Positions 17,768-59,360 of a DNA stretch of 64,000 nucleotides are shown here, in pieces. Position 1 is the stretch's first letter. Every line of letters begins with the position of its first letter. The DNA is from a virus. The DNA lies in IMG/VR virus record IMGVR_UViG_3300012039_000002, positions 62,001-126,000 of that record, one strand, 5' to 3'. The notes under the pieces were generated by a model. The model was not told the origin of the DNA and searched no databases. It saw only the letters and a list, made by a program, of their open reading frames with translations. The translations under genes and the position numbers were made by a program.

Positions 17768-17813
17768 AAAATGACATAGGTTTTTCTCTACTCTATGTGA
17801 TAGGAGAATGTTA

Positions 17814-19694: not shown

Positions 19695-19710
19695 CTAAGG
19701 AGTTATCATA

Positions 19711-28688: not shown

Positions 28689-28697
28689 GAGGATGAA

Positions 28698-37266: not shown

Positions 37267-39573
37267 ATGCGGCGAATATTCGATTTATTTAAAGACCTTC
37301 GAGATGTTCCATCTCCAGATGAGGGCAAGTTTTTAGTCTGGGATAATAATGAAACATTGAGAAACGCCTCTGGTACAGGCACTCCCGGTGAATCGGGTTA
37401 CTCTGGTTTTTCAGGCGCAAATCCCGGCCCTACAGGCTCTGCAGGCGCCTCTGGCTATTCTGGCGCCACAGGTTCTGGCTACAGTGGTTATTCAGGCCGA
37501 TCGGGCACTTCTGGTAAATCAGGCTTCTCTGGTTCCGGCACTTCTGGTTACTCTGGAATATCAGGCAGAGGTACAAGCGGGTATTCGGGTATAAGTGGTT
37601 CTGGTGTTTCTGGTTATTCTGGTCTTGCGGGATTATTTGCGGGCTCCGGCTATTCAGGTGAAACTGGCAGTTCAGGCTATAGTGGCTATTCAGGCTACTC
37701 CGGTTACAGTGGTTCTGGTGTAAGCGGCTATTCTGGCGATTCTGGCTATTCTGGCATAGGGACTTCTGGCTATTCTGGCATAGGGACTTCTGGCTATTCT
37801 GGCGATTCTGGCTATTCTGGCATAGGGACTTCTGGCTATTCTGGCGATTCTGGATATTCTGGTTCCGGTGTTTCCGGCTATTCGGGATTCAGTGGTTCAG
37901 GCACTTCGGGCTATTCCGGCGAACAAGGTAGCTCAGGCTACTCTGGAGATTCGGGCTATTCCGGCGAACAAGGTAGCTCAGGATATTCGGGTTCTGGAGT
38001 AAGTGGCTATTCGGGCGTCTCAGGTTATTCCGGCTACTCTGGCTCTGGCGTATCTGGCTACTCGGGTTTTTCTGGCTCTGGTGTATCTGGCTACTCGGGT
38101 TTTTCTGGTTCGGGTGTTTCCGGTTATTCTGGCTTCAGCGGTTATTCTGGCTTCAGCGGTTATTCTGGAATTGGTACTTCGGGTTATTCTGGAATATCAG
38201 GACATTCAGGCTCAGGTGTTTCAGGTTATAGCGGCTATTCTGGCGTAAGCGGTTACTCTGGGTTTTCTGGCCGCTCTGGTGTAAGCGGATATTCAGGTTA
38301 TTCAGGTAGGTCGGGCTATTCAGGCACTAATCCCGGTGTTCAGGGTGCTTCAGGTTATTCGGGTTATTCAGGCGGTTCTGGTATCGATGGTCTTCCTGGT
38401 GGAACATCTGGTTATTCTGGTTTTAGCGGATACTCAGGTGTTTCGGGTTATTCGGGTTCAGGTACTAGTGGTTATTCTGGCGAACAGGGCACTTCTGGTT
38501 ATTCTGGTTCGGACGCTTTAACGTCAGGCTATTCTGGTATTGATGGCACATCTGGTTATTCTGGCATCAATGGCGTTTCTGGCTATTCTGGCATCGATGG
38601 AGTGTCTGGCTATTCTGGTGTCGACGGTTCATCTGGTTATTCGGGTTTTGTGCCGGGTGGCTCAGGCTATTCTGGTATTTCCGGTTATTCAGGTGAATCT
38701 GGTGCTTCGGGCTACTCAGGTTTCGTTCCTGGCGGCTCAGGTTACTCTGGCATTTCTGGCTATTCAGGCATTGGAACTTCGGGTTATTCAGGTTCTGGCG
38801 TTTCTGGCTACTCTGGTTTTTCTGGATCCGGTGTATCAGGCTATTCAGGCTATTCAGGTAAGTCAGGTTACTCGGGTCATTCAGGTTTTGTGGGTGCGAC
38901 GGGAAATTCTGGCTATTCAGGCGCATCAGGTACTGATGCTCAATATTCTGGTTCATCTGGCTATTCTGGTTCATCTGGCTATTCTGGTTCCTCTGGAACG
39001 TCAGGTTATTCTGGTAAGTCGGGCTACTCAGGAAATTCTGGTTATTCTGGCTTTGGATATTCAGGCTATTCAGGAGCTACAGGCCTTCAAGGTTATTCAG
39101 GCGAAGCAACGTCAGGCTATTCTGGCGGCCAGGGTAATCAAGGTCTTTCTGGCTATTCTGGTTCTGGTGTGTCGGGTTACAGTGGTTCAGGTGTAAGCGG
39201 CTATTCGGGCTCAGGCGTTTCTGGCTATTCAGGCTTCTCAGGCTATTCAGGCTTGAGCACATCTGGTTACTCAGGTGAATCAGGCTATAGTGGCGCATCA
39301 GGCTACAGTGGTTATTCAGGAGTTTCAGGTTATTCTGGCACGCCGCCTGCAGGACTGGGCACTTATTCTGGATGGTCTGGCGCTGGTTCAACCTTTGTTC
39401 AGAACTCCGGTGTAGCAGTAGGGACGCCACTGGTATTTTTGACTCCAACAGATGCATCTGGAGCGACTTTATTTGGATACGTTTCTGGAATTGATGGAAC
39501 TTCAGGCTTTACAGCAGGCTACACTTCGCCAACAGGCGTTGTCACCTGGAACTACATAATCTTTACAAGCTAA
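37267..39573 (+). CDS. Giant Gly-Tyr-Ser repeat fibre protein 1
   Basis: This 768-aa protein has three parts. The N-terminal cap of about 38 residues (MRRIFDLFKDLRDVPSPDEG, KFLVWDNNETLR) is shared with the protein at 46285. Residues about 40-690 are an almost pure GYSG-type shaft (GYSGISGYSG, GSGVSGYSG, GIGTSGYSG). A C-terminal globular domain of about 75 residues follows (TFVQNSGVAVGTPLVFLTPT, VVTWNYIIFTS). The shaft would be a long fibre; it is called collagen-like because Gly recurs every third residue, but Pro is almost absent. The C-terminal domain is the likely receptor-binding or trimerisation part. Synonymous codons are varied along the shaft. Confidence 0.85.
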   Translation: MRRIFDLFKDLRDVPSPDEGKFLVWDNNETLRNASGTGTPGESGYSGFSGANPGPTGSAGASGYSGATGSGYSGYSGRSGTSGKSGFSGSGTSGYSGISGRGTSGYSGISGSGVSGYSGLAGLFAGSGYSGETGSSGYSGYSGYSGYSGSGVSGYSGDSGYSGIGTSGYSGIGTSGYSGDSGYSGIGTSGYSGDSGYSGSGVSGYSGFSGSGTSGYSGEQGSSGYSGDSGYSGEQGSSGYSGSGVSGYSGVSGYSGYSGSGVSGYSGFSGSGVSGYSGFSGSGVSGYSGFSGYSGFSGYSGIGTSGYSGISGHSGSGVSGYSGYSGVSGYSGFSGRSGVSGYSGYSGRSGYSGTNPGVQGASGYSGYSGGSGIDGLPGGTSGYSGFSGYSGVSGYSGSGTSGYSGEQGTSGYSGSDALTSGYSGIDGTSGYSGINGVSGYSGIDGVSGYSGVDGSSGYSGFVPGGSGYSGISGYSGESGASGYSGFVPGGSGYSGISGYSGIGTSGYSGSGVSGYSGFSGSGVSGYSGYSGKSGYSGHSGFVGATGNSGYSGASGTDAQYSGSSGYSGSSGYSGSSGTSGYSGKSGYSGNSGYSGFGYSGYSGATGLQGYSGEATSGYSGGQGNQGLSGYSGSGVSGYSGSGVSGYSGSGVSGYSGFSGYSGLSTSGYSGESGYSGASGYSGYSGVSGYSGTPPAGLGTYSGWSGAGSTFVQNSGVAVGTPLVFLTPTDASGATLFGYVSGIDGTSGFTAGYTSPTGVVTWNYIIFTS
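37768..37851 (+). repeat. Exact tandem duplication of 42 bases in the shaft
   Basis: The 42-base unit GGCTATTCTGGCATAGGGAC... (ending GGCTATTCTGGCGATTCT) occurs twice in a row at 37768-37809 and 37810-37851, with further partial units directly upstream from 37726. It encodes a GYSGIGTSGYSGDS unit. Because the unit is a multiple of three, gain or loss by slippage would change shaft length without breaking the frame. Confidence 0.9.
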
Positions 39574-39583
39574 CGGGAGATAA

Positions 39584-40396
39584 ATGATGGTTCTTTTTAT
39601 TAGATATACAAAAAGTTTGGGCGATTCAGCCATCTATACTCGCCTTAGAAATGCTACGGGTCAGTTCTGGGATTTCGTAGCAGCAGCTTGGGTGAATTCT
39701 CTCGTTGCGGATTGTAAAGTGTTTCTGCTTGAATCAGTTTTCCCAGATGATGATTCGCAGGACGCTCTTTACTCAGCTACAGCATCGATTCCCAATGGCG
39801 GCCCTTGGGTAGAAGAAACAGTCTTAGTGTCCTCAGGCAAAGTTATTGGATACGACAACACTGAGGGAGTAACCGATTCTGAAACTCTCAACTTAAAGCA
39901 ATCTTTATTGGCTTATGTTGGAGATGCTGATAACGTCTTCTCTATTGTGGCAGGTTCATTTACTGGTCTTATCAATTTCTACGCTTGTTCGCTTGCTGAT
40001 TTCTCCGCGAATATGGCTGATCCTGCTAACGCAACGCTTGTTTGCACATTGGGTCCTACTGGAGTGATGACTAATGTGGCTGACATAGCTACAAGTGGAG
40101 AAGTGCTATTCTTTAGACTCGAAACGTTCAATTGCCTTGCTGACTTGACTGTGAACATATACGCCGCAGCCATCTATGGAAACGTAAGAGTCTACGTCCC
40201 TCTTGGTGCACAGACGATTGCAACCGCTTACGTGTATTATCCTACGGCTGACGCTAGTCTTCTAGTCTACGAAGGCAGCAACCTTATTACGTTTAGTGAA
40301 AGCGCTTACGGAAAGTCTCTGGCTTTGATCCCAACGATTAATTGGGACATGATTTCACAGCCAGTAAATCTTACTACTACTCAGGTAATAGTGTAA
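39584..40396 (+). CDS. Fibre-locus protein paralogous to 59798
   Basis: This is a 270-aa protein. The N-terminal 95 residues (LFIRYTKSLGDSAIYTRLRN, GQFWDFVAAAWV, GGPWVEETV) align with the protein at 59798 (RTTKSLSTMYARLKNSSGEF, GGPWIEEAV). This module recurs in phage tail proteins as an attachment or chaperone-like domain. The C-terminal 170 residues are beta-rich (FYACSLADFSANMADPAN, NVRVYVPLGAQTIATAYVYY). Two ATGs in a row begin the gene; GGGAG lies upstream. The product probably links fibre 1 or fibre 2 to the baseplate. Confidence 0.65.
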   Translation: MMVLFIRYTKSLGDSAIYTRLRNATGQFWDFVAAAWVNSLVADCKVFLLESVFPDDDSQDALYSATASIPNGGPWVEETVLVSSGKVIGYDNTEGVTDSETLNLKQSLLAYVGDADNVFSIVAGSFTGLINFYACSLADFSANMADPANATLVCTLGPTGVMTNVADIATSGEVLFFRLETFNCLADLTVNIYAAAIYGNVRVYVPLGAQTIATAYVYYPTADASLLVYEGSNLITFSESAYGKSLALIPTINWDMISQPVNLTTTQVIV

Positions 40397-40408
40397 CGGA
40401 GATAAACA

Positions 40409-40747
40409 ATGGCGTTTGAATACGAAAAGCAGCCCTGGGAAGAGGAAATAGTTGGCGTTGATTTTTCTCGGCGTGTGCCTGCTACAACTTCTATCACTGC
40501 ATACACAGTTGCAGTTGAAGAAACCATTTCTCCGCCGGGCTTTCAGGCTGGCAGCTATTCTCCCCACTTGAGTTGCGGCACACCAGCGCTGTCTGGTCCT
40601 GGCGTTGATCCTGCTAGACATAAAATACTCTCTTCGCTGCTTACGGGCGGCGTCAACAACTTCCAATACCGTGTAACATTTAGAGTGACCTTGTTAGATG
40701 GTCAGAAAAAGGAAGAGGATGTTCTCGTAACGGTTAAGGAGACTTAA
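40409..40747 (+). CDS. Ig-like fibre-tail adaptor protein
   Basis: This 112-aa protein follows the pattern of small Ig-like fibre-tail adaptors: FEYEKQPWEEEIVGVDFSRR near the start, then a strand pair around ITAYTVAVEE, and GGVNNFQYRVTFRVTLLDGQ with a final VLVTVKET. Such proteins lie beside fibre genes and connect fibres to the baseplate. ACGGAG precedes the ATG. It is directly followed, without gap, by giant fibre gene 2, whose start is provided within this gene's end region. Confidence 0.65.
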   Translation: MAFEYEKQPWEEEIVGVDFSRRVPATTSITAYTVAVEETISPPGFQAGSYSPHLSCGTPALSGPGVDPARHKILSSLLTGGVNNFQYRVTFRVTLLDGQKKEEDVLVTVKET

Positions 40748-40748
40748 T

Positions 40749-43700
40749 TTGGCCATAGTTTTTCAAAACAAGAACTTTGCTAAGTCTCTCGTTGCGACCC
40801 TTCTTGGTTCTGGCGGTCTAAGCATATCTGTCACTGCTGGCACGGGAGTAAGGTTCCCTCAAACTGGCTTGTTTAAGCTAGTTATTTGGGGCGCTGCGTA
40901 TTCGAATCCTTCCGACGATCCCAACAGAGAAATAGTTCACGCTACATTATCAGCAGCGGATACTTTCACTATCGTTAGAGCTCAAGAAGACACAGTTGCA
41001 GGCACTTGGGTCGTTGGCTCTAAAGTCGCACACACAATTACTGCTGGAAAAATAAAAGAAATAGAAGATGAAATCTCTGTCGGCGGATCTGGATACTCAG
41101 GCTTTTCTGGCTATTCTGGTGTTGCTGGAGGCACTGGAGTTGCGGGCGTTTCTGGCTATTCTGGCTCAGGTGTAAGTGGCTACTCTGGCTCAGGCGTAAG
41201 TGGCTATTCTGGCTCAGGAATAAGCGGATATTCTGGCGAAGGTACTTCAGGTTATTCAGGCGCGGTCGGTGATATTGGTTTTTCTGGTTATTCTGGTTTT
41301 AGCGGTGCTCTTGGATTTCCAGGCGGCCCTGGCTTATCAGGTATGTCAGGCTATTCCGGCTTTGGAATAAGTGGCTACTCTGGCTCTGGAGTGTCTGGTT
41401 ACAGCGGAGATGCTGGCGTATCGGGCTATTCTGGCAGTGACGCTCAAACGTCAGGCTATTCTGGTGCAAGTGGCTATTCTGGCAGCGATGCTCAAACGTC
41501 GGGTTATTCTGGTGCAAGTGGCTATTCTGGACCAATGGGTCCTGGCGGCGGAGATTCTGGTTATTCTGGTTATTCAGGTAGCGATGCTCAAACGTCTGGT
41601 TATTCAGGTTTTTCTGGTTATTCTGGTGTCGGTTTTTCTGGCTCTGACGGTTCGTCAGGCTATTCAGGCTACTCTGGCGTCGGAACGTCTGGCTATTCTG
41701 GCGTAGGTTTTTCTGGAGCAGATGGTACGTCTGGTTACTCTGGCTCTGGAATTTCTGGTTATTCCGGCTCTGGTGTCTCCGGTTACTCTGGTTCTGGCGT
41801 CTCCGGCTACTCTGGCTCTGGAACTTCAGGCTATAGTGGAATAAGCGGCTACTCTGGCTCTGGTGTTTCTGGCTACAGTGGAGCATCCGGCTACTCTGGC
41901 TCAGGCGTCAGTGGCTACTCTGGCTCAGGCGTCAGTGGCTACTCTGGTTCTGGCGTATCAGGTTACTCTGGCTATTCAGGAATTTCAGGTTACTCCGGCT
42001 ACTCTGGTTATTCTGGAGTTTCAGGATATTCTGGCATTTCTGGCTATTCAGGTTATTCAGGATATAGCGGAACGACGGGTACAGGATTCGACTACTATCT
42101 AAGAGATATAGCGTCTGATGTTAGCGGATATGGTGAATTAACTAGATCGACACCGTCAGAAGCTCAAAATGACGACTCTGTTACTACAACAAGTGGTGCT
42201 CTGATCGAGGCATATGCAACTGAATCAGGCGATCCAAATGTCACGTCTATTTCTCCAGGAAAGTGGGCTTTCCACTTCTGGGGCTGGGTTAACAACAACG
42301 CGGGTTTACAGACATTTGTTTACGATGTTTATAAGAGAGACGCGTCGGGTGTCGAAACACTTCTCTTCACAAAGAGCAGTGCATCAATTGAATCTACCGC
42401 TTCTGGCACACCGACCGAACTTCAAGACGATTATTTTGATGGCAGTGGATTCACGATTGCTAATACAGATCGACTAGTTCTAAAAGTAAATGGCTTTACT
42501 GATACGGGCACTAGAACAATCCATCTACTCCATTCAGGCCCGACATTTGCGTCTCACTTTTCAACGCCACTCACAGTGGGTATCTCTGGCAGTTCAGGTT
42601 TTAGTGGTTATAGTGGAATTGGAACATCTGGTTACTCTGGAGTTTCAGGCTACAGTGGCATAAGCGGCTATTCTGGAATATCTGGCTATAGCGGTTATTC
42701 AGGCTCGGGTGTTAGTGGCTATTCTGGCTCTGGCGTAAGCGGCTATTCGGGCTCGGGTGTTTCTGGCTATTCCGGATATTCAGGTTCTGGAGTAAGCGGT
42801 TATTCTGGTTCCGGAGTTTCTGGTTATTCTGGAACATCTGGCTATAGTGGCTATTCTGGCTCTGGCGTTAGTGGCTATTCTGGTGTCGATGGCGTTTCTG
42901 GCTACTCTGGTTCTGGAACCTCTGGTTACTCTGGTTTAGCGCCAGAAACAATTACTTATCTGCCAACATGGGTTTCAGGTATTTCAGGCAGTTATTCAGG
43001 CGGAAATCTTGCTTCAATACAGACTGCTTATGACGCCGATGACTACATTGTCTGGGAAGTATCAGGCGTCCCTGGATTCGTAGTCAATGTCGATTACTCA
43101 GGTGTAGCGGCTTTCAATAAGGTCCAGCTTAGAACTGGCTATACGAACCCTAATCACACTGTCTTAGTAGAAGCATACAACAGTGGTGATACCACATGGG
43201 ATTCACTGGGTTCTTTCAGAGGATTTGCTGGTGGTTATGCAACATTCTCTTATGACGTCATTACAGATGTTCCATACATCCAAGCTGGAGGCTACGTACA
43301 GACGAGGTTTTACCATCAGTCGACGGGTAATCCTGCTGATGAGTTCTTGCTTGACTACATGACATTACAACAGGCTACCGCCGGCCCTCAGGGTCCTGAA
43401 GGTCAGTCGGGAGTATCCGGATATAGTGGAGTTTCAGGTTATTCTGGAACGTCGGGATACTCTGGTTATTCAGGCGATAGTGGTTATTCAGGACATAGTG
43501 GAAGCGGTATTTCTGGCTATTCTGGTTCTGGAACATCTGGTTATTCTGGTGTCTCAGGCTATTCTGGCTATTCTGGTTATTCGGGAATTTCAGGCTACAG
43601 TGGTGCTTCGGGCTACTCTGGTTATTCGGGAATTTCAGGTTACTCTGGATCTTCTGGTTATTCAGGCGTAAGTGGTGAAAATTATCCATGGCAAGGTGCT

Positions 43701-45266
43701 TGGGCTTCTGGAACTGCTTATGTGCCGAATGATACAGTCGGCTATCTAGGCGCCGGTTATATCTCAATTCAAAGCGGTTCGGGCCAAACCCCAGTTCCTA
43801 CGAGCACGGCATACTGGGATTTGCTTACTGCTTCAGGCTATTCAGGAATGTCGGGCTATTCTGGTTACTCTGGCTCTGGAGTTTCTGGTTATTCTGGAAT
43901 TGGCACTTCTGGCTATTCGGGCATTTCAGGCGCCTCTGGCTATTCTGGAATTTCTGGCTACTCCGGTTATTCAGGTTCTGGTGTAAGCGGCTATTCTGGC
44001 GTCGGAACATCTGGTTATTCAGGAGATTCTGGTTATTCAGGAATTACATATCCTTGGGAAGGCGCATGGGTTTCAGGCACGCTTTATCAAGTAAATGACA
44101 CTGTAAGTTATCTTGGTGCAGGTTTCATTTCTATTCAAAGCGGAGTAGGACAGACGCCTGATCCTGCAGGCACTGCTTATTGGGATCTTGTTTCTAGCTC
44201 AGGCTATTCAGGAATTTCAGGATATTCTGGCGTTTCTGGTTATTCAGGAGCTTCAGGTTATAGTGGTTACTCTGGCTCTGGCGTAAGTGGCTATTCTGGC
44301 TCAGGTGTAAGCGGCTATTCTGGCGTCGGAACATCTGGCTACTCTGGCTATTCTGGAGTATCTGGTTACTCTGGTTATTCAGGAATAAGTGGCTATAGTG
44401 GCTCAGGCGTATCGGGTTACTCTGGATATAGTGGCTATTCAGGTTCTGGTGTATCTGGCTATTCTGGCTCAGGTGTCTCTGGTTACAGCGGCTATTCAGG
44501 TTCTGGAATATCAGGTTACTCTGGTTCTGGAACATCTGGCTACTCTGGAGCCGGAACGTCTGGCTATTCTGGAGTAAGTGGCTATTCGGGTGTCTCTGGC
44601 TACTCTGGTTCAGGTGTAAGCGGTTACTCTGGTTCTGGTGTGTCGGGTTATAGTGGCTATTCTGGCGCAGGAACTTCAGGCTACTCTGGAGCTGGAACTT
44701 CCGGTTATTCTGGCTCTGGTGTTTCAGGTTACTCTGGCTATTCTGGCTCTGGCGTAAGCGGCTATTCTGGTGTTTCTGGTGCCGGAACGTCTGGCTATTC
44801 TGGTGGAACTGGTACCGATGGTACTTCTGGCTATTCTGGTGGAACTGGTACTGATGGTACGTCAGGTTACTCTGGATGGTCAGGCGCCGGAACGTCTGGC
44901 TACTCAGGATATTCTGGTCGTGCAGGTGTTAGAACTTACACATGGGTTATTGATACGCCTGTGGCAAGTAGTGCTCTTGCATCTGGAGTTCCTGGTCCGC
45001 GCCTTCGTGAAGCTCAGACCGCCACAAGAGTAGACGCATACACTCTAAACAACTCTGGATGGACGATCAACATTCAAGAGAGAAGTGCTATCGGTACTTC
45101 AGGTTCTAACCTCATTGCAAGCACTTACTTCCCAGCTGCTGGCGGTTCTGTGGCAAGCTTCTCAGATGCTGCTCTTGCTGCCGACAACTGGCTCTGGCTA
45201 CAGATAGTCGCTGTCTCTGGAACTCCAGGTCTTGGCGTTGTCACTCTAAGCACAACGGTACCATAA
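40749..45266 (+). CDS. Giant Gly-Tyr-Ser repeat fibre protein 2 with binding modules
   Basis: This is a 1505-aa protein. The start is TTG at 40749, supported by AAGGAG (40736-40741). The N-terminal 115 residues form the attachment module also seen at 32063 (FQNKNFAKSLVATLLG, EIVHATLSAADTFTI). The GYSG shaft is interrupted by globular modules: about 443-613 unknown beta domain, about 735-880 a repeated beta module (module A), and CBM5/12-like modules at about 978-1032 and 1100-1153 (YPWQGAWASGTAYVPNDTVG). A C-terminal globular domain (about 1392-1505) ends the protein. It is probably an outer tail fibre; no sialidase or depolymerase motif is evident. Confidence 0.85.
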   Translation: MAIVFQNKNFAKSLVATLLGSGGLSISVTAGTGVRFPQTGLFKLVIWGAAYSNPSDDPNREIVHATLSAADTFTIVRAQEDTVAGTWVVGSKVAHTITAGKIKEIEDEISVGGSGYSGFSGYSGVAGGTGVAGVSGYSGSGVSGYSGSGVSGYSGSGISGYSGEGTSGYSGAVGDIGFSGYSGFSGALGFPGGPGLSGMSGYSGFGISGYSGSGVSGYSGDAGVSGYSGSDAQTSGYSGASGYSGSDAQTSGYSGASGYSGPMGPGGGDSGYSGYSGSDAQTSGYSGFSGYSGVGFSGSDGSSGYSGYSGVGTSGYSGVGFSGADGTSGYSGSGISGYSGSGVSGYSGSGVSGYSGSGTSGYSGISGYSGSGVSGYSGASGYSGSGVSGYSGSGVSGYSGSGVSGYSGYSGISGYSGYSGYSGVSGYSGISGYSGYSGYSGTTGTGFDYYLRDIASDVSGYGELTRSTPSEAQNDDSVTTTSGALIEAYATESGDPNVTSISPGKWAFHFWGWVNNNAGLQTFVYDVYKRDASGVETLLFTKSSASIESTASGTPTELQDDYFDGSGFTIANTDRLVLKVNGFTDTGTRTIHLLHSGPTFASHFSTPLTVGISGSSGFSGYSGIGTSGYSGVSGYSGISGYSGISGYSGYSGSGVSGYSGSGVSGYSGSGVSGYSGYSGSGVSGYSGSGVSGYSGTSGYSGYSGSGVSGYSGVDGVSGYSGSGTSGYSGLAPETITYLPTWVSGISGSYSGGNLASIQTAYDADDYIVWEVSGVPGFVVNVDYSGVAAFNKVQLRTGYTNPNHTVLVEAYNSGDTTWDSLGSFRGFAGGYATFSYDVITDVPYIQAGGYVQTRFYHQSTGNPADEFLLDYMTLQQATAGPQGPEGQSGVSGYSGVSGYSGTSGYSGYSGDSGYSGHSGSGISGYSGSGTSGYSGVSGYSGYSGYSGISGYSGASGYSGYSGISGYSGSSGYSGVSGENYPWQGAWASGTAYVPNDTVGYLGAGYISIQSGSGQTPVPTSTAYWDLLTASGYSGMSGYSGYSGSGVSGYSGIGTSGYSGISGASGYSGISGYSGYSGSGVSGYSGVGTSGYSGDSGYSGITYPWEGAWVSGTLYQVNDTVSYLGAGFISIQSGVGQTPDPAGTAYWDLVSSSGYSGISGYSGVSGYSGASGYSGYSGSGVSGYSGSGVSGYSGVGTSGYSGYSGVSGYSGYSGISGYSGSGVSGYSGYSGYSGSGVSGYSGSGVSGYSGYSGSGISGYSGSGTSGYSGAGTSGYSGVSGYSGVSGYSGSGVSGYSGSGVSGYSGYSGAGTSGYSGAGTSGYSGSGVSGYSGYSGSGVSGYSGVSGAGTSGYSGGTGTDGTSGYSGGTGTDGTSGYSGWSGAGTSGYSGYSGRAGVRTYTWVIDTPVASSALASGVPGPRLREAQTATRVDAYTLNNSGWTINIQERSAIGTSGSNLIASTYFPAAGGSVASFSDAALAADNWLWLQIVAVSGTPGLGVVTLSTTVP

Positions 45267-45267
45267 G

Positions 45268-46008
45268 ATGGGAATAACGCTAGTAGGTGCAAACTTTTCA
45301 AGTGGTACATCGAGTGGCACATTTACAACATCACTGACGGCTCTTACTAGCGGCATTGACACAGCTGCTAGAGCTGGAGACTTAGTTCTTGCTATCACAG
45401 CAGCTTCGAACAACGCCACAAGCGGTGCTGGTGTTTCGGGAGTGGCAGGAGTTGAATATACAACTCTATTTACGGGTTACGCGAATGATAACTTAGACTG
45501 TTCTTGCTCTGTTCGGTACAAATATTTGACAGCAGAAGATGCTACTTGTTTGCATTTCAGTAACGGTTTGCTAACTAGAGGCATGGTCGGAATTGCCACT
45601 GTTTGGAGAGGTGTAGACCCAGCGACTCCAATAAGTAATAGCGGCGCAGCTGCCAGCACAAATACTGGACGTGGAAATCCGCCGTCTGGAACAACGTGGG
45701 ATAATCAGCGCCCGGGCGGAATGACTGTAATTATCGGAGCAGGAACTGCTTTTTCAGGAACAGCTTTTGGCGGCCATCTTGTATTTCCTGCTGGCTTCAC
45801 AGGTATTGCTAGAGCTCGTCATAGTGGCACAGTTGTTTCAGGCGGTGTGAACGCTGCTATCGGATATAGACCTTGGTCGGGATATGGAATAGAAGATCCT
45901 GCAGCATTTACTAGCGGTTCTGTTTCAACTGCGGATTCTGCTCTCGGAATAATTGTCAGTCTCAACCCCTCTGTAAACGGCTGCATAATGGTAGCTGGAG
46001 AGATTTAG
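45268..46008 (+). CDS. Unknown 246-aa fibre-locus protein
   Basis: This is a Gly/Ser/Thr/Ala-rich, beta-type protein that starts MGITLVGANFSSGTSSGTFT and contains CSCSVRYKYLTAEDATCLHF. It resembles small fibre-associated beta proteins found beside tail fibre genes in other myoviruses. It begins one base after the stop of fibre gene 2, without a ribosome binding site, so coupling is likely. No repeat, signal peptide or enzyme motif is visible. Its role is unknown; a receptor-binding tip of fibre 2 is one option. Confidence 0.6.
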   Translation: MGITLVGANFSSGTSSGTFTTSLTALTSGIDTAARAGDLVLAITAASNNATSGAGVSGVAGVEYTTLFTGYANDNLDCSCSVRYKYLTAEDATCLHFSNGLLTRGMVGIATVWRGVDPATPISNSGAAASTNTGRGNPPSGTTWDNQRPGGMTVIIGAGTAFSGTAFGGHLVFPAGFTGIARARHSGTVVSGGVNAAIGYRPWSGYGIEDPAAFTSGSVSTADSALGIIVSLNPSVNGCIMVAGEI

Positions 46009-46017
46009 GATAATGGA

Positions 46018-46284
46018 ATGTACGGAAACTATGAATATGGCTCTGTGCCCTATGGCGATTCATATGTAATAACCGTAACTATCGTCAGAGTAGGCGATAT
46101 TGATGTCATATTTACTTCAAACAGGCGATCGCTGCTCTTTATATCAGAAAACAAAGCCTCGTTGTTTTCTTCAATTGACCCTCACATGACTATTTTTAAA
46201 GTCTTGGCTAAAGACTTTCCATTCGTTTCTCCAAAGAAGCGGAACATATTCATCACTCAAGAAAAAATGGGACGATCACACTAA
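46018..46284 (+). CDS. Unknown 88-aa protein
   Basis: This small protein begins MYGNYEYGSVPYGDSY and has a hydrophobic strand-rich middle (VGDIDVIFTSNRRSLLFISE) and a basic end. It lies between the 246-aa protein and giant fibre 3 and ends directly before the next ATG. An AGGATAATGGA stretch precedes its start. I do not recognise it; it may be a small adaptor. Confidence 0.55.
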   Translation: MYGNYEYGSVPYGDSYVITVTIVRVGDIDVIFTSNRRSLLFISENKASLFSSIDPHMTIFKVLAKDFPFVSPKKRNIFITQEKMGRSH

Positions 46285-49200
46285 ATGCAGCGCATATATA
46301 AGAGATTCCGCGAATTATTAGACGCTTCTCAGCCAGACGCTGGGAAGTTTTTGCGTTGGAGCACTAGCGGAACAATAGAAAATGCTGTGGGCGTTTCTGG
46401 CTATAGCGGCGATTCGGGCTACAGTGGTACGTCAGGAAAATCGGGATATTCCGGCTCTAGTGTATCGGGTTATTCTGGTAAGTCGGGCTACAGTGGTCGA
46501 AGTGGCTATTCGGGAATTTCCGGCTCAGGTGTTTCTGGCTATTCAGGCACTTCTGGCTATTCTGGTGCTCATGGTGTAATCGGTTTGTCGGGCACATCAG
46601 GATACTCGGGAAGATCAGGATCAGGAGTGTCTGGCTATTCAGGTTCTGGTACTTCTGGCTATAGTGGCTATTCCGGAGTTACTGGATCACAAGGCGCCTC
46701 AGGCAAGTCAGGCTATTCTGGTGCCGATGGAGTTAACGGAGCTTCAGGTCACTCTGGCTACTCAGGCAAGTCGGGTTATAGCGGCGCAGACGGGTCTATC
46801 GGTTATTCAGGTGAATCAGGCTATTCTGGCTTTTCTGGCTCCGGTGTTTCTGGTTTTTCTGGCTCCGGTGTTTCAGGCTATTCAGGAATTGGTACATCAG
46901 GATATTCTGGCTTAGATGCTCAGATGTCCGGCTATTCGGGTTATAGTGGTCTCAGCGGGGTTGGACTTGTCGGCCCTCCAGGCACTTCTGGTTATTCTGG
47001 AATTGGCACTTCTGGTTATTCTGGAATTGGAACTTCTGGTTATTCTGGAGTCTCAGGCTTAGGTGTGTCGGGTTATTCTGGAGTCTCTGGCTCTGGTGTG
47101 TCAGGCTACTCCGGCGTTGCGCCGTCGACTACGACATATCTTCCATCTTCAGTTTCAACAAACGTTGGGTCGTATGTATCAGGAACTTTGACGTCTATAC
47201 AGATATTTGGTGACAATGATGTTTATGAGGTAGATGAAGTTTCTGGAGTTCCCGGATTTGATATTCGCATTGATTTTTCTGGAGTATCCGGCTTTAATAA
47301 AGCGCAAATGAATATTTGGTACACGGGTGTTGCCAATCACATACCTAAAGTGCAAATCTATAACAACAACACAACAAGCTGGGATAGCATAGGTTCTCTA
47401 AACGACGATACAGAACTTCAATCGCACGAATTTGCTGTAATAAATAGTGTTCCGTACATATCAGCCGGCGCAGTTTCGACTAGAATTTATCACGAAACAT
47501 CTGGCATAATAACGCACGACATTTTAGTAGATTATTTTGTACTTCAAAATGCTATTGGCGGCGCTCAAGGCATCCCCGGCTTTATTGGTCCTTCTGGCTA
47601 TAGCGGCTCTAGTACCTCGGGTTACAGTGGACTCTCAGGTTATTCAGGACTTTCTGGTACTTCCGGTTCTGGTACGTCAGGTTATAGCGGTTTTGTAGGA
47701 GTACCAGGAGGCCAAGGAATATCTGGCTATTCTGGCATAAGTGGTTATTCCGGCATAAGTGGGACTTCTGGTTATTCCGGTATTGGAACATCCGGTTATT
47801 CTGGAATAAGTGGTTATAGCGGTTCAGGCGTTTCAGGCTATAGCGGAATTTCAGGCTCAGGCGTAAGCGGTTATTCTGGTTCCGGAGCTTCGGGTTACAG
47901 CGGCTATTCTGGTTTTGGAGTGTCGGGTTACAGTGGTTCAGGTGTAAGTGGCTATTCTGGTTCTGGTATTTCCGGTTATTCGGGTGACATAGGAACTTCG
48001 GGCTACTCAGGATTAAACGCTGATTCAGGATCGCCCGGCGTATCCGGCTACTCTGGCTATTCTGGTATTGGCACGTCGGGCTATTCTGGTATCGGTACAT
48101 CCGGGTATTCAGGCGATAGCGGTATTTCTGGCTACTCTGGTTCTGGTGTAAGTGGATACTCTGGTTATAGCGGCGTTTCAGGAATTTCTGGCTACTCTGG
48201 TGTGTCTGGTTCTGGTGTGTCTGGTTATTCTGGTTACTCTGGTTCTGGTGTGTCCGGTTACTCTGGTGTCTCTGGCTTTTCTGGTTACTCTGGTTCTGGT
48301 TATTCTGGTTATTCTGGTTATTCTGGTTACTCTGGTTCTGGTGTATCTGGTTATTCTGGTTACTCTGGTTCTGGCGTGTCTGGTTATAGTGGCTATTCTG
48401 GCTCCGGTGTAAGTGGCTATTCTGGTTCTGGCGTATCAGGTTATAGTGGCTATTCTGGTTCTGGCGTATCGGGTTATTCAGGACAAGACGGTGCGACGGG
48501 AAATTCTGGCGACTCTGGCTACAGTGGCGCCTCGGGATACTCTGGCCAGGATGGTATCATCGGCTTTAATGGCGACTCTGGCTACAGTGGCCTCTCAGGA
48601 TACTCTGGCTACAGCGGCTACTCTGGCTCAGGTGTAAGTGGTTATAGTGGCTATTCTGGCTACAGTGGCGTTTCAGGATATTCTGGTTATAGTGGCATTT
48701 CGGGCTACAGCGGCTCTGGCATTTCGGGCTACAGTGGCTCTGGCGTAAGTGGCTACAGCGGGCTCTCACCAGAAAATGTCACTTACTATGCTAGTGGCTT
48801 TGATGTGCTGACAGGAACTCTCACATCTGGGACTACTCTTTCTCTATCTGGCTTCAATGACGGTGACTTTGCTCATGTAGACGAAGTTGGAGGTGCTCCG
48901 GGATTTGACATTCGTATTGGCTTCTCTGGTGTCGACACTTTCAACGAAGTAATACTAAATGCTTTTTATCTTGGTAGTGCTGGTCACATAGTAAAAGTTG
49001 ACTTCTTCAATAATGCAACCTCTGGCTGGGATTCGTTTGGAACACTGAATGATGACATAGCTTTTCAGGTCCACGAGTTCCCAATCCCAGATGATACTGA
49101 TTATATTGCTACAGGTGGAGTGGTTGCTTCAAGAATATATCATTATTCTAATGGTCAAACGTCGCATGATTTTGACTTAGACTATTTTGTCATCCGAGAT

Positions 49201-51360
49201 TCCATTGGCGGCTCTCAAGGAATAGAAGGCATATCTGGCTACTCTGGCTACTCTGGTTATTCGGGTTCGGGCGTCTCAGGCTATTCGGGTTCTGGTGTCT
49301 CAGGTTATTCTGGCTCAGGCGTAAGCGGCTATTCTGGTTCTGGAACATCAGGCTATTCTGGTGTCGGAACGTCTGGCTACTCGGGAGCTTCCGGCTATTC
49401 TGGCATCTCAGGTATTCAATATCCGTGGCAGGGCGCTTGGGTGTCGGGTACTGCTTATATACCGAACGATTGTATTGGTTATCTTGGTGCGTCATACATT
49501 TCGATTCAGAGTGGTTCGGGTCAAACCCCAGTCCCTACTGGAACAGCATATTGGGATCTACTGGCGTCGTCAGGTTACTCTGGCATTTCAGGTTACTCTG
49601 GCTCCGGTGTTTCGGGCTACTCAGGTTCAGGCACTTCTGGTTATTCTGGCTATAGCGGAAAATCTGGCTATAGCGGCTATTCAGGCTATTCAGGCTCTGG
49701 TGTTTCAGGTTACTCAGGTTCTGGAACATCAGGCTATTCAGGCTATAGTGGTTATTCAGGATATTCTGGACATTCTGGTTACTCTGGTGTCAGCGGTTAT
49801 TCAGGTGTCTCTGGCTATTCGGGTATTAGTGGTTCTGCGCCGTATATCGGAGTAAATACTCATACATCTTCAGATCTCATGGGTACATATCCTGCTGGTA
49901 TGTCTTTGATGACAGTGAACGTAGGACTCTCTACTGGTTGGCCTGAACCTGTAGGTTCTGCAAATTGTCAAGGAGAAGTAATTACTTATTATGACAATAC
50001 ATATGGTGCCGACGGCATAGGATTAGGTTATCAAGAATATCATGTTAGAGGAGGTCAACCAAATTCAAATACTTCAAGATATTATAGAAAACCAGATACA
50101 GCTGAAGCTGGTTCAGCATGGACAGCTTGGAGTGAAGGAATAGGCATTTCTGGATACAGTGGTTATAGCGGCTACTCTGGATATTCTGGCTACTCAGGAT
50201 TCAGTGGTTATTCTGGAAACTCAGGATACTCTGGCTACTCTGGCTCAGGTGTAAGTGGTTATAGTGGCTATTCTGGCTACTCTGGCTCTGGAACTTCTGG
50301 CTACAGTGGCTTTAGTGGAATTTCAGGTTACTCTGGCTTCTCTGGTATCAGTGGTTACTCTGGCTATTCCGGTTCTGGTGTTAGTGGCTATTCCGGATAT
50401 TCCGGTTCTGGTGTTAGTGGCTATTCCGGATCGCCTAACTCTAATGCAGACACAGTAGACGGACAGCATAATTACGATTTCTGGAGATATTGTGGTAATA
50501 GAACGACTGATGCTACACCGACTGACGTATCTAATTTGGTTGGGGGATTTACTTTTTATACACAATTTGTCTCAGACGTATCTGGTTATCCAGAAACAAC
50601 GTACGGCCCAGTGTGGGGTTTCGCCGATAATCTTAATGGTTCTGTATTTTACGGCTGGGAAATGTATAAGGGTTACAGCGCTAGTTTGTATCTTAGGACA
50701 CAGACTGGCTTAACTACATGGTCTAGTTGGTCTATACTTGGATCATCAGGAAACAGCGGTTATTCCGGTTTCTCTGGTATTAGTGGCTATTCAGGATCTG
50801 GCGTTTCTGGTTATTCAGGATTCAGCGGCTACTCAGGTGTTTCTGGCTACTCTGGCTCTGGTGTCTCTGGCTACTCCGGAACTGTAGCCGCGGGATCTAT
50901 TACAGGATCAGGAACAAGCGGGTATATCACTAAATGGGGGAGTGCTTCTGGTATAACTTCTTCTCTTCATCTTCGTGAAGACGCTGAAGGAGTGTTCATT
51001 GGTGGCAATCTTTCTAGCGGCGCTGCATACTTTCATATAGATTCTGACACAAAAGACGACGTACCGTTTAAGGTTACAGGAACTCAGGGAGAGCTGTTTT
51101 CAGTTACAGACAATCTAGATTCACTTCTTCAATCAGTCAACGACATCACAGGACTGCCAGTATTTGAAGTTTATGCTGATGACCGCGTAGTAGTACACGG
51201 GGCAACTGAGGTGGTGGCGAAGGACGCTCCGTCAACTCCGGCAGCTGATAATGCGAGACTTTACGTGACGGCTTCCGGCGCAACACCAAACAGGGAAATC
51301 GCTCTTAATGTAAAATTCGAAGATGGAACAGTAGTGATATTATCATCGGTATTGGTGTAA
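46285..51360 (+). CDS. Giant Gly-Tyr-Ser repeat fibre protein 3 with five binding-type modules
   Basis: This 1691-aa protein is the largest in the window. The N-terminal cap (MQRIYKRFRELLDASQPDAG) is paralogous to that of fibre 1. The GYSG shaft carries module A twice (about 283-430 and 829-978: VPGFDIRIDFSGV and APGFDIRIGFSGV), a CBM5/12-like module (about 1045-1098, YPWQGAWVSGTAYIPNDCIG), and two pyocin-knob-like modules (about 1186-1287, ending SAWTAWSEG; about 1383-1488, ending LTTWSSWSILG). The last 160 residues form a C-terminal domain (DSDTKDDVPFKVTGTQGE, NREIALNVKFEDGTVV). No ribosome binding site is evident; it may be coupled to the gene upstream. Confidence 0.85.
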   Translation: MQRIYKRFRELLDASQPDAGKFLRWSTSGTIENAVGVSGYSGDSGYSGTSGKSGYSGSSVSGYSGKSGYSGRSGYSGISGSGVSGYSGTSGYSGAHGVIGLSGTSGYSGRSGSGVSGYSGSGTSGYSGYSGVTGSQGASGKSGYSGADGVNGASGHSGYSGKSGYSGADGSIGYSGESGYSGFSGSGVSGFSGSGVSGYSGIGTSGYSGLDAQMSGYSGYSGLSGVGLVGPPGTSGYSGIGTSGYSGIGTSGYSGVSGLGVSGYSGVSGSGVSGYSGVAPSTTTYLPSSVSTNVGSYVSGTLTSIQIFGDNDVYEVDEVSGVPGFDIRIDFSGVSGFNKAQMNIWYTGVANHIPKVQIYNNNTTSWDSIGSLNDDTELQSHEFAVINSVPYISAGAVSTRIYHETSGIITHDILVDYFVLQNAIGGAQGIPGFIGPSGYSGSSTSGYSGLSGYSGLSGTSGSGTSGYSGFVGVPGGQGISGYSGISGYSGISGTSGYSGIGTSGYSGISGYSGSGVSGYSGISGSGVSGYSGSGASGYSGYSGFGVSGYSGSGVSGYSGSGISGYSGDIGTSGYSGLNADSGSPGVSGYSGYSGIGTSGYSGIGTSGYSGDSGISGYSGSGVSGYSGYSGVSGISGYSGVSGSGVSGYSGYSGSGVSGYSGVSGFSGYSGSGYSGYSGYSGYSGSGVSGYSGYSGSGVSGYSGYSGSGVSGYSGSGVSGYSGYSGSGVSGYSGQDGATGNSGDSGYSGASGYSGQDGIIGFNGDSGYSGLSGYSGYSGYSGSGVSGYSGYSGYSGVSGYSGYSGISGYSGSGISGYSGSGVSGYSGLSPENVTYYASGFDVLTGTLTSGTTLSLSGFNDGDFAHVDEVGGAPGFDIRIGFSGVDTFNEVILNAFYLGSAGHIVKVDFFNNATSGWDSFGTLNDDIAFQVHEFPIPDDTDYIATGGVVASRIYHYSNGQTSHDFDLDYFVIRDSIGGSQGIEGISGYSGYSGYSGSGVSGYSGSGVSGYSGSGVSGYSGSGTSGYSGVGTSGYSGASGYSGISGIQYPWQGAWVSGTAYIPNDCIGYLGASYISIQSGSGQTPVPTGTAYWDLLASSGYSGISGYSGSGVSGYSGSGTSGYSGYSGKSGYSGYSGYSGSGVSGYSGSGTSGYSGYSGYSGYSGHSGYSGVSGYSGVSGYSGISGSAPYIGVNTHTSSDLMGTYPAGMSLMTVNVGLSTGWPEPVGSANCQGEVITYYDNTYGADGIGLGYQEYHVRGGQPNSNTSRYYRKPDTAEAGSAWTAWSEGIGISGYSGYSGYSGYSGYSGFSGYSGNSGYSGYSGSGVSGYSGYSGYSGSGTSGYSGFSGISGYSGFSGISGYSGYSGSGVSGYSGYSGSGVSGYSGSPNSNADTVDGQHNYDFWRYCGNRTTDATPTDVSNLVGGFTFYTQFVSDVSGYPETTYGPVWGFADNLNGSVFYGWEMYKGYSASLYLRTQTGLTTWSSWSILGSSGNSGYSGFSGISGYSGSGVSGYSGFSGYSGVSGYSGSGVSGYSGTVAAGSITGSGTSGYITKWGSASGITSSLHLREDAEGVFIGGNLSSGAAYFHIDSDTKDDVPFKVTGTQGELFSVTDNLDSLLQSVNDITGLPVFEVYADDRVVVHGATEVVAKDAPSTPAADNARLYVTASGATPNREIALNVKFEDGTVVILSSVLV

Positions 51361-55783: not shown

Positions 55784-57001
55784 TTGAAAGTATTATTAAT
55801 TCATCCGCCGCACCCTAATTCTACTGATGACAGGCTTGATCCTCCAATGGGCCTTCTTTATATTGCATCTCATTTAGAGAAAAACTATGTAGACGTGGAT
55901 GTTTTAGATTTGTCGGGAAACAGCGATTGGGACGTTGCTATACCATTTGCTGACATTTATGGGATTACGTCTTATATCGCCACGCTGGGTATAACTGAAT
56001 CGATAGCAAAGCTGTGCAGATTAAAAAACGCAAAAGCTCAGGTAATTATCGGCGGAGCTCACGCATCTGTGCGTCCGCAAGACTTTCCGTATGCCGACAA
56101 GGTGGTTAGAGGCTATGGTGAAGCTCCCATGCTGGCTCTTTGTGGCAAACAAGCGACAGTGGACCTATTTGAGTTCCCTGCATTCAATAAAGTTAATTTA
56201 GGATCCTATTCAAGGCTAATAGACGGAAAGCCCTCGGTTCCCTTTTTAACATCTAGAGGCTGCCCATTCAAATGCAGCTTTTGTGGTCTGGCTTCTATGC
56301 ATAATATAAATGGTCGGTACCACATGATGAAGCCTGACGTGGCTGCAACGCAGCTATGCCGTATTAAGAATGAACTTGGCATTGATAGATTAAACTTCCA
56401 AGATGACATTTTTACGATGAATCGCCCTAGACTCTTTAAAATACTAGAGGCAGTAAAGGAGCTAGGATTTAGATTCTCTTGTATGGGTAGGGCAGGCTAC
56501 GACACTGAAGAGACTTACGAGAAACTAGCTGAGTCAGGATGTCAACAGATAGCATGGGGAATAGAAACAGGTTCGCAATACATGCTTGACCGTATGAGAA
56601 AAGAAATAAAAGTTCAAGACAACTATAACGTAATTAAATGGGCTAAGAAATATGGTATAGTATCTAGGGCTTTCTTTATGATAGGATTTCCCGGAGAGAC
56701 TAGAGAAACGATAGAGGAAACAAAACGTTTCATAGAAAAATCAGATCCTGACCAATACTTTGTTTCTAACTTTACGCCGTATCCTGGAACAGAAGTAGCT
56801 GAAAATCCAGAATGGTACGGAATTACTGGCATGTCTCATGATTATAGCAACTATTTTCAGGTTTCAAAAGACGGCCCTGGCGGATGTAACATAGATACAG
56901 AGTGGCTTTCTAGAGAGCAATTTAGAGAACTAGAACTAGAGTTTAGACAATGGATTAAGTCCCGAGGCATGAGAGGAGCTAAGCAAAAATATGAAGGTTA
57001 G
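55784..57001 (+). CDS. Radical SAM protein with B12-binding-like N-terminal domain
   Basis: This is a 405-aa protein. The TTG start at 55784 is supported by AGGAG (55773-55777). Residues 1-120 form a Rossmann-type domain of the cobalamin-binding radical SAM group (VLLIHPPHPNSTDDR start, AQVIIGGAHASVRP). It lacks an obvious DxHxxG motif, so cofactor binding by that fold is uncertain. Residues 160-167 hold the CxxxCxxC iron-sulfur site (CPFKCSFC), followed by IETGS (radical SAM strand) and FFMIGFPGETRETIEE. Family members methylate or rearrange substrates. It overlaps the next gene by 11 bases. The substrate is unknown; fibre or surface-glycan modification is an inference from the neighbours. 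Confidence 0.85.
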   Translation: MKVLLIHPPHPNSTDDRLDPPMGLLYIASHLEKNYVDVDVLDLSGNSDWDVAIPFADIYGITSYIATLGITESIAKLCRLKNAKAQVIIGGAHASVRPQDFPYADKVVRGYGEAPMLALCGKQATVDLFEFPAFNKVNLGSYSRLIDGKPSVPFLTSRGCPFKCSFCGLASMHNINGRYHMMKPDVAATQLCRIKNELGIDRLNFQDDIFTMNRPRLFKILEAVKELGFRFSCMGRAGYDTEETYEKLAESGCQQIAWGIETGSQYMLDRMRKEIKVQDNYNVIKWAKKYGIVSRAFFMIGFPGETRETIEETKRFIEKSDPDQYFVSNFTPYPGTEVAENPEWYGITGMSHDYSNYFQVSKDGPGGCNIDTEWLSREQFRELELEFRQWIKSRGMRGAKQKYEG

Positions 57002-59360
57002 TATAATAATTGCAACTTACAACCACTTGGAAGATTGTTTAAAGCCTTGCTGCGAGGCAATTAAGCAATACGTAAACTTAAACGAATGTGAAGTAATTAT
57101 TGCGGCTAATGGCTGTACAGATGGTACTCGTGAATACGTAGAAAGCTTGGGCGAATCCTTTAAGCTTGTTTGGTTTGAGAAGCCCGGTTTTGCCATTCCC
57201 GTTAATGCAGCGGCGCAAATAGCTCAGGGCGAGTACTTGTTGTTTCTAAACAACGATTGCTTCTTGCTTAAAGACAACGTCATCAATCTTATGTTGGCTG
57301 AGTTTGAGAAAGATTCTAAAGTCGGTGTTGTCGGCCCTGAATTTTGCTACAACGAATACGCTGATACAAATTATTTGAAGTTCTATTGCGCAATGATGCC
57401 CAAGACTCTCTTTGATGAGCTTGGACGATTCGACGTGCTCTTTGCTGATGGTACTTGTGAAGATGTTGATTTATGTATAAAGACAGAAAAGGCTGGCTAT
57501 AAGCTTGTTATGGTCACTTTGCCAATCTTTCACAAATTTGGAGTTACTGTAAGGGAGTTGAAAAACATAAGTCAGATTCTGACCAAAAATGCTCTCAGTC
57601 TTGGCAAAAGATATAATTCTAAATGGTATCAGAAATATTATAAGAAAATGTCGGAAAGACTTTGCGTATCTATTGTTATTGCGACGTATAATCACTTAGA
57701 GGACTGCTTAAAGCCTTGCATAGAATCAATACAGAAATACTGCAATCTTAATAACAAGGAAGTGATAGTCGTTGCTAACGGATGCACAGACGGAACTAGA
57801 GAATATGTTGAGAGTCTGGGAGCTCCGTTTAGACTTATTTGGTTTGACGAGGCAATCGGCGCTGCTAGGGCGTACAACGCAGGAATAAAAGAAGCTAAGT
57901 ACGAAAACATTCTGATTCTTAATAACGACGTCTTTTTCTTAGAACAAGAAAAAGACACTCTAATCAATATGCATCTAATACATTTCAACAATCCAAAGAT
58001 CGGTATTGTGGGTCCTATTAAGTCGGTTAGCGCTCCAATTAATCGAGAATTTATAATATTCTTTTGTGCAATGATTCGCAAAGAGGTCTTTGACAAGATT
58101 GGCTATCTTGATGAAATTTTCACAGTGGGTGCCGGCGAGGATACAGACTTCTGTTTGAGGGCTGAGGCTGCTGGTTATAAAATGGCAGTAGCAGGGGAGA
58201 TGACTGGTCACAATTCTGCTGAGGGTCAAATCACAGGCTCTGTCCCTATCTTTCATAAGGGCGAAGCGACTGTACATGATGAAAGTTTGGTCTCGGGCTG
58301 GAAGGAGATATTTCAGCGCAATGGTGAGATTCTTGCTGAAAGGTATCCCAAAGTTGAGGTTGTGGAGCGAAAAGAAATTCTCTGCGTTATTCCGACGAAA
58401 GGCAGATATTTTACAACTCTTCCTCTTGCAATTCAGTCTGTAATTTCGCAGACTGTAAAGCCCGACAGATTAATCGTGTACGATGATGGCGAACATAAAG
58501 ATTTGAGACAAAACTCTGTTTATCAGTATCTTTTTAGCACACTGGATTCTGCTGGTATAAAGTGGGAAGTTTCGTTCACAAGAGGCATAGGTCAGCATTT
58601 TGCGCATCAAGCTGCTAACACATCTGATTTTAAGTTCGTGTGGCGATTGGACGACGATACAGTTGCTCGCCCCGATGTTTTAGAGAAGCTGCTGTCTCAT
58701 ATGCAAGAAGGCATTGGCGCAGTTGCTGGTTCGGTGATTACGCCGGGACAGGAAGCTAAATCAGATTTTTATGCGACGCATCTTATTGATATAAATAGAA
58801 TGCCCAATTTGCAATGGGCTAGAGGTGCAGGCGTTTACGAAGTAGAACATCTCTATAGTTCGTTTCTGTATAGAACTAACATAGCTGATTATTGTTTGGA
58901 GCTTTCAAAGGTAGCTCATAGAGAAGAAACGATTTTTACTCATAGGCTGTTTCGTGCTGGCTATAAACTTTTAGTAGATAGATCAGCCGTAACTTATCAC
59001 TACCGCAATCCTGAAGGTGGTATTAGAACCGAAAAGGATCCCAAGCTTTGGGAACAGGACGAGGAAATATTTAGAACTGAATTGAGAAAATGGGGCTATA
59101 AGTTTATTGCTCTATCTCATGGCCTTGGCGATCATCTTATGTTTGTTAATATCGTCCCTGAACTTTTAAAGAGATGCAAGACGCTTGTTATGTTTTGCGT
59201 TTACGGCGACGTTTTTATGGGGCTGCCAAATGTTATTTGTTTGCCTTTGGGCGACGCAGCTGCTTTTGGTTGCAAAGAGACAAGCGTGTATGAATGGATG
59301 GTAAAGTACAATTGGAAAAGGAGCATGTTAGAGGCTTATGAAAAACTATATCTTAATTAG
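56991..59360 (+). CDS. Triple GT2-domain glycosyltransferase with truncated GT9 C-terminus
   Basis: This is a 789-aa protein with three GT-A domains in tandem. Domain 1 (about 1-215) and domain 2 (about 222-460) are near duplicates: SIIIATYNHLEDCLKPC and SIVIATYNHLEDCLKPC, both with NGCTDGTREYVESLG, and NND at the metal-binding position. Domain 3 (about 462-680) begins LCVIPTKGRYFTTLPLAIQS and has RLDDDT. The last part (about 690-789) has LSHGLGDHL, the start signature of GT9 heptosyltransferases, but stops after about 100 residues. The missing half is in the next frame. Such multi-domain enzymes build short glycans on a protein or on the host surface. Confidence 0.85.
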   Translation: MKVSIIIATYNHLEDCLKPCCEAIKQYVNLNECEVIIAANGCTDGTREYVESLGESFKLVWFEKPGFAIPVNAAAQIAQGEYLLFLNNDCFLLKDNVINLMLAEFEKDSKVGVVGPEFCYNEYADTNYLKFYCAMMPKTLFDELGRFDVLFADGTCEDVDLCIKTEKAGYKLVMVTLPIFHKFGVTVRELKNISQILTKNALSLGKRYNSKWYQKYYKKMSERLCVSIVIATYNHLEDCLKPCIESIQKYCNLNNKEVIVVANGCTDGTREYVESLGAPFRLIWFDEAIGAARAYNAGIKEAKYENILILNNDVFFLEQEKDTLINMHLIHFNNPKIGIVGPIKSVSAPINREFIIFFCAMIRKEVFDKIGYLDEIFTVGAGEDTDFCLRAEAAGYKMAVAGEMTGHNSAEGQITGSVPIFHKGEATVHDESLVSGWKEIFQRNGEILAERYPKVEVVERKEILCVIPTKGRYFTTLPLAIQSVISQTVKPDRLIVYDDGEHKDLRQNSVYQYLFSTLDSAGIKWEVSFTRGIGQHFAHQAANTSDFKFVWRLDDDTVARPDVLEKLLSHMQEGIGAVAGSVITPGQEAKSDFYATHLIDINRMPNLQWARGAGVYEVEHLYSSFLYRTNIADYCLELSKVAHREETIFTHRLFRAGYKLLVDRSAVTYHYRNPEGGIRTEKDPKLWEQDEEIFRTELRKWGYKFIALSHGLGDHLMFVNIVPELLKRCKTLVMFCVYGDVFMGLPNVICLPLGDAAAFGCKETSVYEWMVKYNWKRSMLEAYEKLYLN

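Follow-up and report, generated by a model that had tools for sequence, protein, structure and literature searches.

What are the three giant repeat proteins encoded in this phage locus, and which gene travels with them? To address this, we analysed a window of 64,000 nucleotides, positions 62,001 to 126,000 of IMG/VR record IMGVR_UViG_3300012039_000002 (163,355 bp), in which a first-pass annotation had described repeat proteins of 768, 1505 and 1691 aa in one locus after the baseplate genes. An ORF check of the window recovered all three on the plus strand at the coordinates given there: fibre A (37267..39573, 768 aa), fibre B (40749..45266, 1505 aa, TTG start) and fibre C (46285..51360, 1691 aa). 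The gene order is also as described, with the tail sheath gene (17808-19694) and the baseplate genes (25938-30569) upstream of the fibres. A small gene between fibres A and B (40409..40747, plus strand) matches Pfam Gp77, a fibre-tail adaptor (E 6.5e-08).

The repeat had been read as GYSG. Glycine does recur at every third residue, but the unit is G-X-S with one-residue interruptions, because serine fills most third (Y) places, at 167 of 226, 227 of 319 and 254 of 348 triplets in fibres A, B and C, while X varies. Tyrosine is the commonest residue at X, where Val, Ser, Thr, Ile, Phe and others also occur. Counted over the shafts A, B and C, Y is serine 165, 212 and 240 times and threonine 5, 4 and 2 times, and a hydroxyl amino acid thus recurs at Y throughout all three. 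Glycine accounts for about 34% of shaft residues, serine for 29-31%, tyrosine for 12-14% and proline for 0.9-1.3%. The scarcity of proline remarked on earlier is therefore real, while the emphasis on a Gly/Tyr/Ser composition needs correcting: comparison with relatives shows that the defining traits are serine at Y and the lack of proline, tyrosine being merely the commonest X.

Of the residues of fibres A, B and C, 88, 64 and 62% lie in runs of GXY triplets. Within the shafts 75-82% of glycine-to-glycine steps are exactly three residues; shuffled shafts give 15%, and 23% at most. The longest unbroken runs, of 14, 17 and 22 triplets, exceed those of all 500 shuffles, which reached at most 12. 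Pfam Collagen (PF01391) matches the three proteins far above its cut-off (E 2e-42, 3e-27 and 3e-42), and PHROG tail-fibre families match with E down to 1e-55. Taken with the glycine periodicity and the place of the genes after those for the baseplate, these matches bear out the earlier collagen-like tail-fibre reading, and we hold with high confidence that the proteins are collagen-like tail fibres. Proline- or imino-rich triplets, a trait of animal-type collagen, are not found in the window shafts; given their proline content, we therefore class the fibres as collagen-like and not as animal-type collagen.

A stereotyped loss of one residue, GSG[V/I]S, interrupts the run at intervals of a few triplets; almost all short breaks are a single missing residue (GSG, GIG, GVG, GAG), and they amount to 11-16 per 100 triplets. 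Among relatives picked by their enzyme or by tail-tip protein J (both described below), Ser-type shafts have breaks, for the most part GSG[V/I]S, in 46/50 and 21/22 loci, with a frequency of 4.5-4.9 per 100 triplets; the GYSG-picked set was left out of these counts because its search pattern itself contains a break. Gly-Pro-Lys-Gly-Asp collagens have 0.5 breaks per 100 triplets. As a guess, the break could be a hinge or a register mark. The frequency of interruptions, the low proline and the many aromatic residues would also suit a shaft that is a disordered Gly/Tyr/Ser linker of the FUS type or a polyglycine-II bundle, and polyglycine-II helices do exist in gp38, the receptor-binding tip protein of a phage (PMC6851490). 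We nevertheless think it very unlikely that the shaft is anything of this kind, as glycine falls strictly at one residue in three, triplets continue unbroken for 14-22 units here and for 138 and 127 in the cultured phage P19250A, and the breaks are of one fixed, single-residue kind that goes beyond mere composition. The periodicity points instead to collagen-like shafts that would trimerise into a right-handed triple helix. As to the origin of the repeat, recent tandem amplification as its sole source was rejected in part: most triplets use scrambled synonymous codons, yet exact DNA repeats in the shaft genes are still more numerous than in synonymous shuffles. The collagen helix rises 0.286 nm per residue; computed with this value, the contour lengths would be about 196 (A), 255 (B) and 273 nm (C) if the shafts are extended.

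The three fibres differ in how the shaft is furnished. Fibre A consists of an N-terminal cap (37267-37380), a G-X-S shaft without large inserts and a short C-terminal tip (about 39343-39570). Fibre C has an N-terminal cap, shaft segments with five inserted globular modules and a C-terminal domain, while fibre B combines shaft segments with four inserted globular modules and a C-terminal domain. Conserved caps had been claimed for the whole set; this is true of the N-termini of A and C, which are paralogous (47% identity), whereas the N-terminal domain of B (40749-41084) is of another kind, related to the ORF at 32063-32779. A beta-sandwich module is present in three copies with 46-47% identity, one in fibre B (42972..43388) and two in fibre C (47119..47562 and 48763..49206). 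Its predicted structure (mean pLDDT 75.8, with residues 18-33 weak) is a jelly roll that resembles the carbohydrate-binding modules CBM29 and CBM6, as well as a baseplate protein of phage phi812. Fibre B further contains a CBM5/12-like module (44064..44162, residues 1106-1138; Pfam match under the curated cut-off), a second copy of it near residue 1010-1060, and a globular module at 42081..42584 (residues about 445-612) with no family match. Modules related to the CBM5/12-like ones are also carried by other loci. By analogy, the inserted modules support an adhesive role, and the fibres may bind a receptor. Two further ORFs, at 39584-40396 among the fibres and at 59798-60259 after the glycosyltransferase genes described below, have in common a 90-residue N-terminal domain (48% identity), relatives of which recur past the enzyme in other loci.

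The same three fibres differ in length in a related phage record (69%) recognised via its baseplate protein, where they span 1114, 918 and at least 1236 aa from stop to stop. An in-frame stretch of 1416 bp in fibre B (42816..44231, plus strand) is absent from the near-identical phage IMGVR_UViG_3300044769_000068 and is bounded by a 14-bp direct repeat, suggesting that shaft and module content probably changes through recombination. Assembly collapse is thought an unlikely cause of the difference, since the repeat shared at the junction is just 14 bp. A diversity-generating retroelement was ruled out, as the record contains no reverse transcriptase. In the near-identical phage locus L138 a short stretch where the sheath gene region ends also differs, being about 200 bp in the window (19589-19791) and about 1 kb in that locus.

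A search for relatives with the same repeat had been proposed in the first-pass annotation. By pattern scan, at least 120 stretches in IMG/VR encode GYSGSGVSGYSG, and the fibre type is therefore widespread; G-X-S fibres are common in environmental phages of IMG/VR and hence not new as such. Still longer ORFs of the same type, of 3275 and 2714 aa, are present there. Searches of named phages by tblastn and blastn found no relatives of the shaft, which low-complexity filtering probably masks.

The most informative companion of the fibres lies beyond the three ORFs and is a dedicated glycosyltransferase. It is a plus-strand gene (56991..59360, 789 aa) whose product has three GT2 domains and resembles, in its C-terminal half, the N-terminal half of GT9; a short ORF (59338..59796, plus strand) follows that is like the C-terminal half of GT9 (heptosyltransferase), with weak family matches. 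The GT9-like assignments are sub-threshold (GT9 E 0.01 for the P19250A ORF, RfaC E 0.0019). The last GT2 domain and the GT9-like half (residues 479-789) are termed the core here; its GT2 part matches Pfam Glycos_transf_2 (E 3.4e-09) with an invariant W-R-x-D-D-D as its acidic metal-binding motif. The structure model of the core (pLDDT 92.6) has a GT-A fold. Its top fold matches are polypeptide GalNAc-transferases (Z 15.8 over 207 residues, 3.2 A), but chondroitin polymerase (Z 14.9) and SpsA (Z 14.3) follow closely enough that the fold leaves the acceptor undecided. At least 581 relatives of the core are present in IMG/VR, whereas 84,980 prokaryote genomes yielded 5, a G-X-S collagen ORF lying beside two of them. 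The core was not found in PHROGs at E 0.001, and a sequence profile run against solved structures returned methyltransferases only, via the fused domain of some relatives.

How tightly fibre and enzyme are coupled was assessed among the listed matches, in environments that were partly matched, several samples being found in both the Ser-type and the Gly-Pro-Thr lists. Enzyme domains occur in 70/120 listed GYSG loci (62/70 where 1 kb or more of DNA follows), in 0/120 GPKGD-collagen loci and in 0/120 AAA+ control loci. When neighbouring ORFs of the pattern-picked GYSG loci were clustered without a preset, the enzyme appeared in 69/120, the GT9-like ORF in 53/120 and a third family in 21/120. Thus a phage glycosyltransferase, in the window the GT2 and split GT9-like gene pair at 56991-59796, is the commonest neighbour of G-X-S fibres, which is the new observation here. 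Picking loci in reverse, by the enzyme alone, gave a collagen ORF in 57/80 loci, all with Ser or Thr at Y at 67% or more, compared with 0/120 AAA+ control loci.

Composition separates the loci further. The comparison covered 210 collagen-fibre loci followed by 1 kb or more of DNA. Of those with a Ser fraction at Y of at least 0.3, 72/84 contain the core, and of those below it 0/126; likewise it occurs in 71/86 with Pro in fewer than 10% of triplets, as opposed to 1/124 at 10% or more. No core was found in the 63 Gly-Pro-Thr collagen loci. Serine at Y and proline scarcity are confounded with each other throughout these data. The enzyme goes with serine and not with tyrosine, because relative L314 combines 1% Tyr at X with 95% Ser at Y. 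Twelve of the 84 Ser-type loci have no core enzyme nearby; as the contigs are fragments, absence near the fibre is not absence from the genome. One Ser-type locus of this kind, L017, has ORFs resembling other sugar genes.

The fibres might instead be unmodified, with the enzyme acting on phage DNA or, for superinfection exclusion, on the lipopolysaccharide or wall glycan of the host, and host-interaction genes merely clustering near fibres. This is the published view of glycosyltransferases in aquatic phages (PMC7029224, PMC10202952); moreover, the upstream GT2 domains weakly match PHROG O-antigen conversion enzymes, and some long enzyme loci (L287, L289, L340 and L354) are without a collagen ORF. 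L287 departs from the pairing in that it groups at least four large glycosyltransferase ORFs with no collagen ORF near. We judge this explanation unlikely, since it does not predict an enzyme in 72 Ser-type loci and in none of the Ser-poor ones, nor the split observed inside a single lineage. That lineage was picked on its tail-tip protein J with no regard to fibre type; of its loci with at least 5 kb downstream, 16 have collagen and enzyme, 7 collagen only, none the enzyme only and 11 neither (Fisher p 1.3e-4). All 16 enzyme-bearing loci have Ser-type shafts, with 74-90% Ser at Y, whereas four of the collagen-only loci extend 1.5 kb or more past the shaft and comprise three Gly-Pro-Thr shafts (two of them near copies) and one unconvincing collagen.

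The J lineage bears equally on whether G-X-S fibres and enzyme simply co-travel in related phages with no functional link. Relatedness is present, as many core enzymes of GYSG loci are interrelated, with a median pairwise identity of 68%. Co-travel would not account for Gly-Pro-Thr shafts, or the lack of any collagen, coinciding with absence of the enzyme within one lineage, nor for the pair being found in 49/83 DNA clusters when every other neighbour family is confined to 18% of GYSG loci or fewer. It is also at odds with the occurrence of the pair both in the sheath-bearing window phage (record above 160 kb) and in the much smaller P19250A, the enzymes of the two being about 40% identical, and we give it only a slim chance.

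Methylophilaceae phage P19250A (KX815270, 38.7 kb) is a cultured relative, reached through the enzyme search instead of the shaft search. Its host is Methylophilaceae IMCC19250. It encodes a 1201-aa G-X-S fibre (APC43908.1), annotated as tape measure, with the two long triplet runs given above and 80% Ser at Y. The fibre gene is followed by a methyltransferase, the GT2 core and the GT9-like ORF. The methyltransferase is a separate gene, unlike in many relatives (L076, L114 and L160), where a SAM methyltransferase domain is fused ahead of the GT2 core. Such fused or adjacent methyltransferases suggest an O-methylated glycan.

Overall, we favour as the likelier account that the three proteins form trimeric, collagen-like fibres for adhesion and that the phage's own enzyme O-glycosylates their serines, with sugar perhaps replacing proline as stabiliser. 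The N-terminal caps would anchor the fibres on the baseplate of a contractile-tailed phage, three chains would wind along the G-X-Ser triplets to form a thin rod, and carbohydrate-binding-like modules on it and at its tip would attach to the host surface. Serine hydroxyls at the outward-facing third place would be the acceptor for the GT2/GT9-like glycosyltransferase, which may be produced from the same late region as the fibres. The sugars could then stabilise a nearly proline-free collagen helix, comparable to galactosyl-threonine in vent-worm collagen, and could also keep the rod soluble and protease-resistant. On the strength of the gene association, glycosylation of shaft serine is somewhat probable; the substitution of sugar for proline is a more tentative idea, for which the odds fall a little short of even.

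Several known systems offer parts of this arrangement. EPclA and EPclB of E. coli O157:H7 prophages (PHROGs 6320, 5073 and 1806) likewise have a Gly-X-Y shaft between an N-terminal attachment and a C-terminal tip in the tail region, whereas the window shafts are proline-free and serine-constant, with GSG[V/I]S breaks every few triplets, and the fibres carry inserted lectin-like modules and have a glycosyltransferase partner. BclA is a bacterial, Gly-Pro-Thr-rich protein. The Bacillus spore filaments it forms resemble the window fibres in having a collagen-like region, a hydroxyl amino acid at Y and sugar genes nearby; the window instead has a phage fibre, with serine but without proline, and another enzyme family, and glycosylation is deduced here from genes, whereas O-glycosylation of BclA has been shown (cited in PMC11952670). 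Recombinant EPclA, by comparison, is unglycosylated and forms trimeric triple helices that are stable to 42 C, so that not every phage collagen needs sugar (PMC3368898). In Riftia cuticle collagen, galactosylated threonine is proposed to stabilise the triple helix (Mann 1996, cited in PMC10141479); this is an animal collagen with threonine, and only the principle, that a sugar on the Y-place hydroxyl aids stability, may be common to both. Mycobacteriophage virion proteins are glycosylated, presumably by phage glycosyltransferases, although the glycans, as cited, are on capsid and tail-tube C-termini and not on collagen shafts (Freeman 2023, cited in PMC12619734). Among the papers searched, none ties a glycosyltransferase to the collagen shaft of a phage or reports glycosylated tail fibres.

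More speculatively, there may be a widespread class of proline-free glyco-collagen fibres in which a dedicated line of GT2, GT9-like and often methyltransferase enzymes decorates Y-place serine over the full length of the rod and the sugar stabilises it in place of proline and hydroxyproline, with phages switching between Gly-Pro-Thr without the enzyme and Gly-X-Ser with it; we think this possible, but would not bet on it. If true, it would account for glycosyltransferases in many environmental phages that have until now been read as anti-restriction or host-envelope tools, reveal a route to collagen without proline or hydroxylation, and allow protein-material design from one fibre gene and a small enzyme set. 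P19250A would be a cultured phage in which to test it.

Directly upstream of the glycosyltransferase is a B12-binding radical SAM enzyme (55784..57001, plus strand), which might modify the glycan or the fibre. The same order, radical SAM then glycosyltransferase, is kept in loci L148, L150 and L152-L154, and L152 and L153 have further radical SAM-like ORFs nearby. Elsewhere in the window, a GT17-like glycosyltransferase (949-1746, minus strand) adjoins the portal and terminase genes, and downstream of the fibre and enzyme genes are a T4 RNA-ligase-1-like gene (60556-62193) and a gene weakly matching M90 peptidase (63045-63866).
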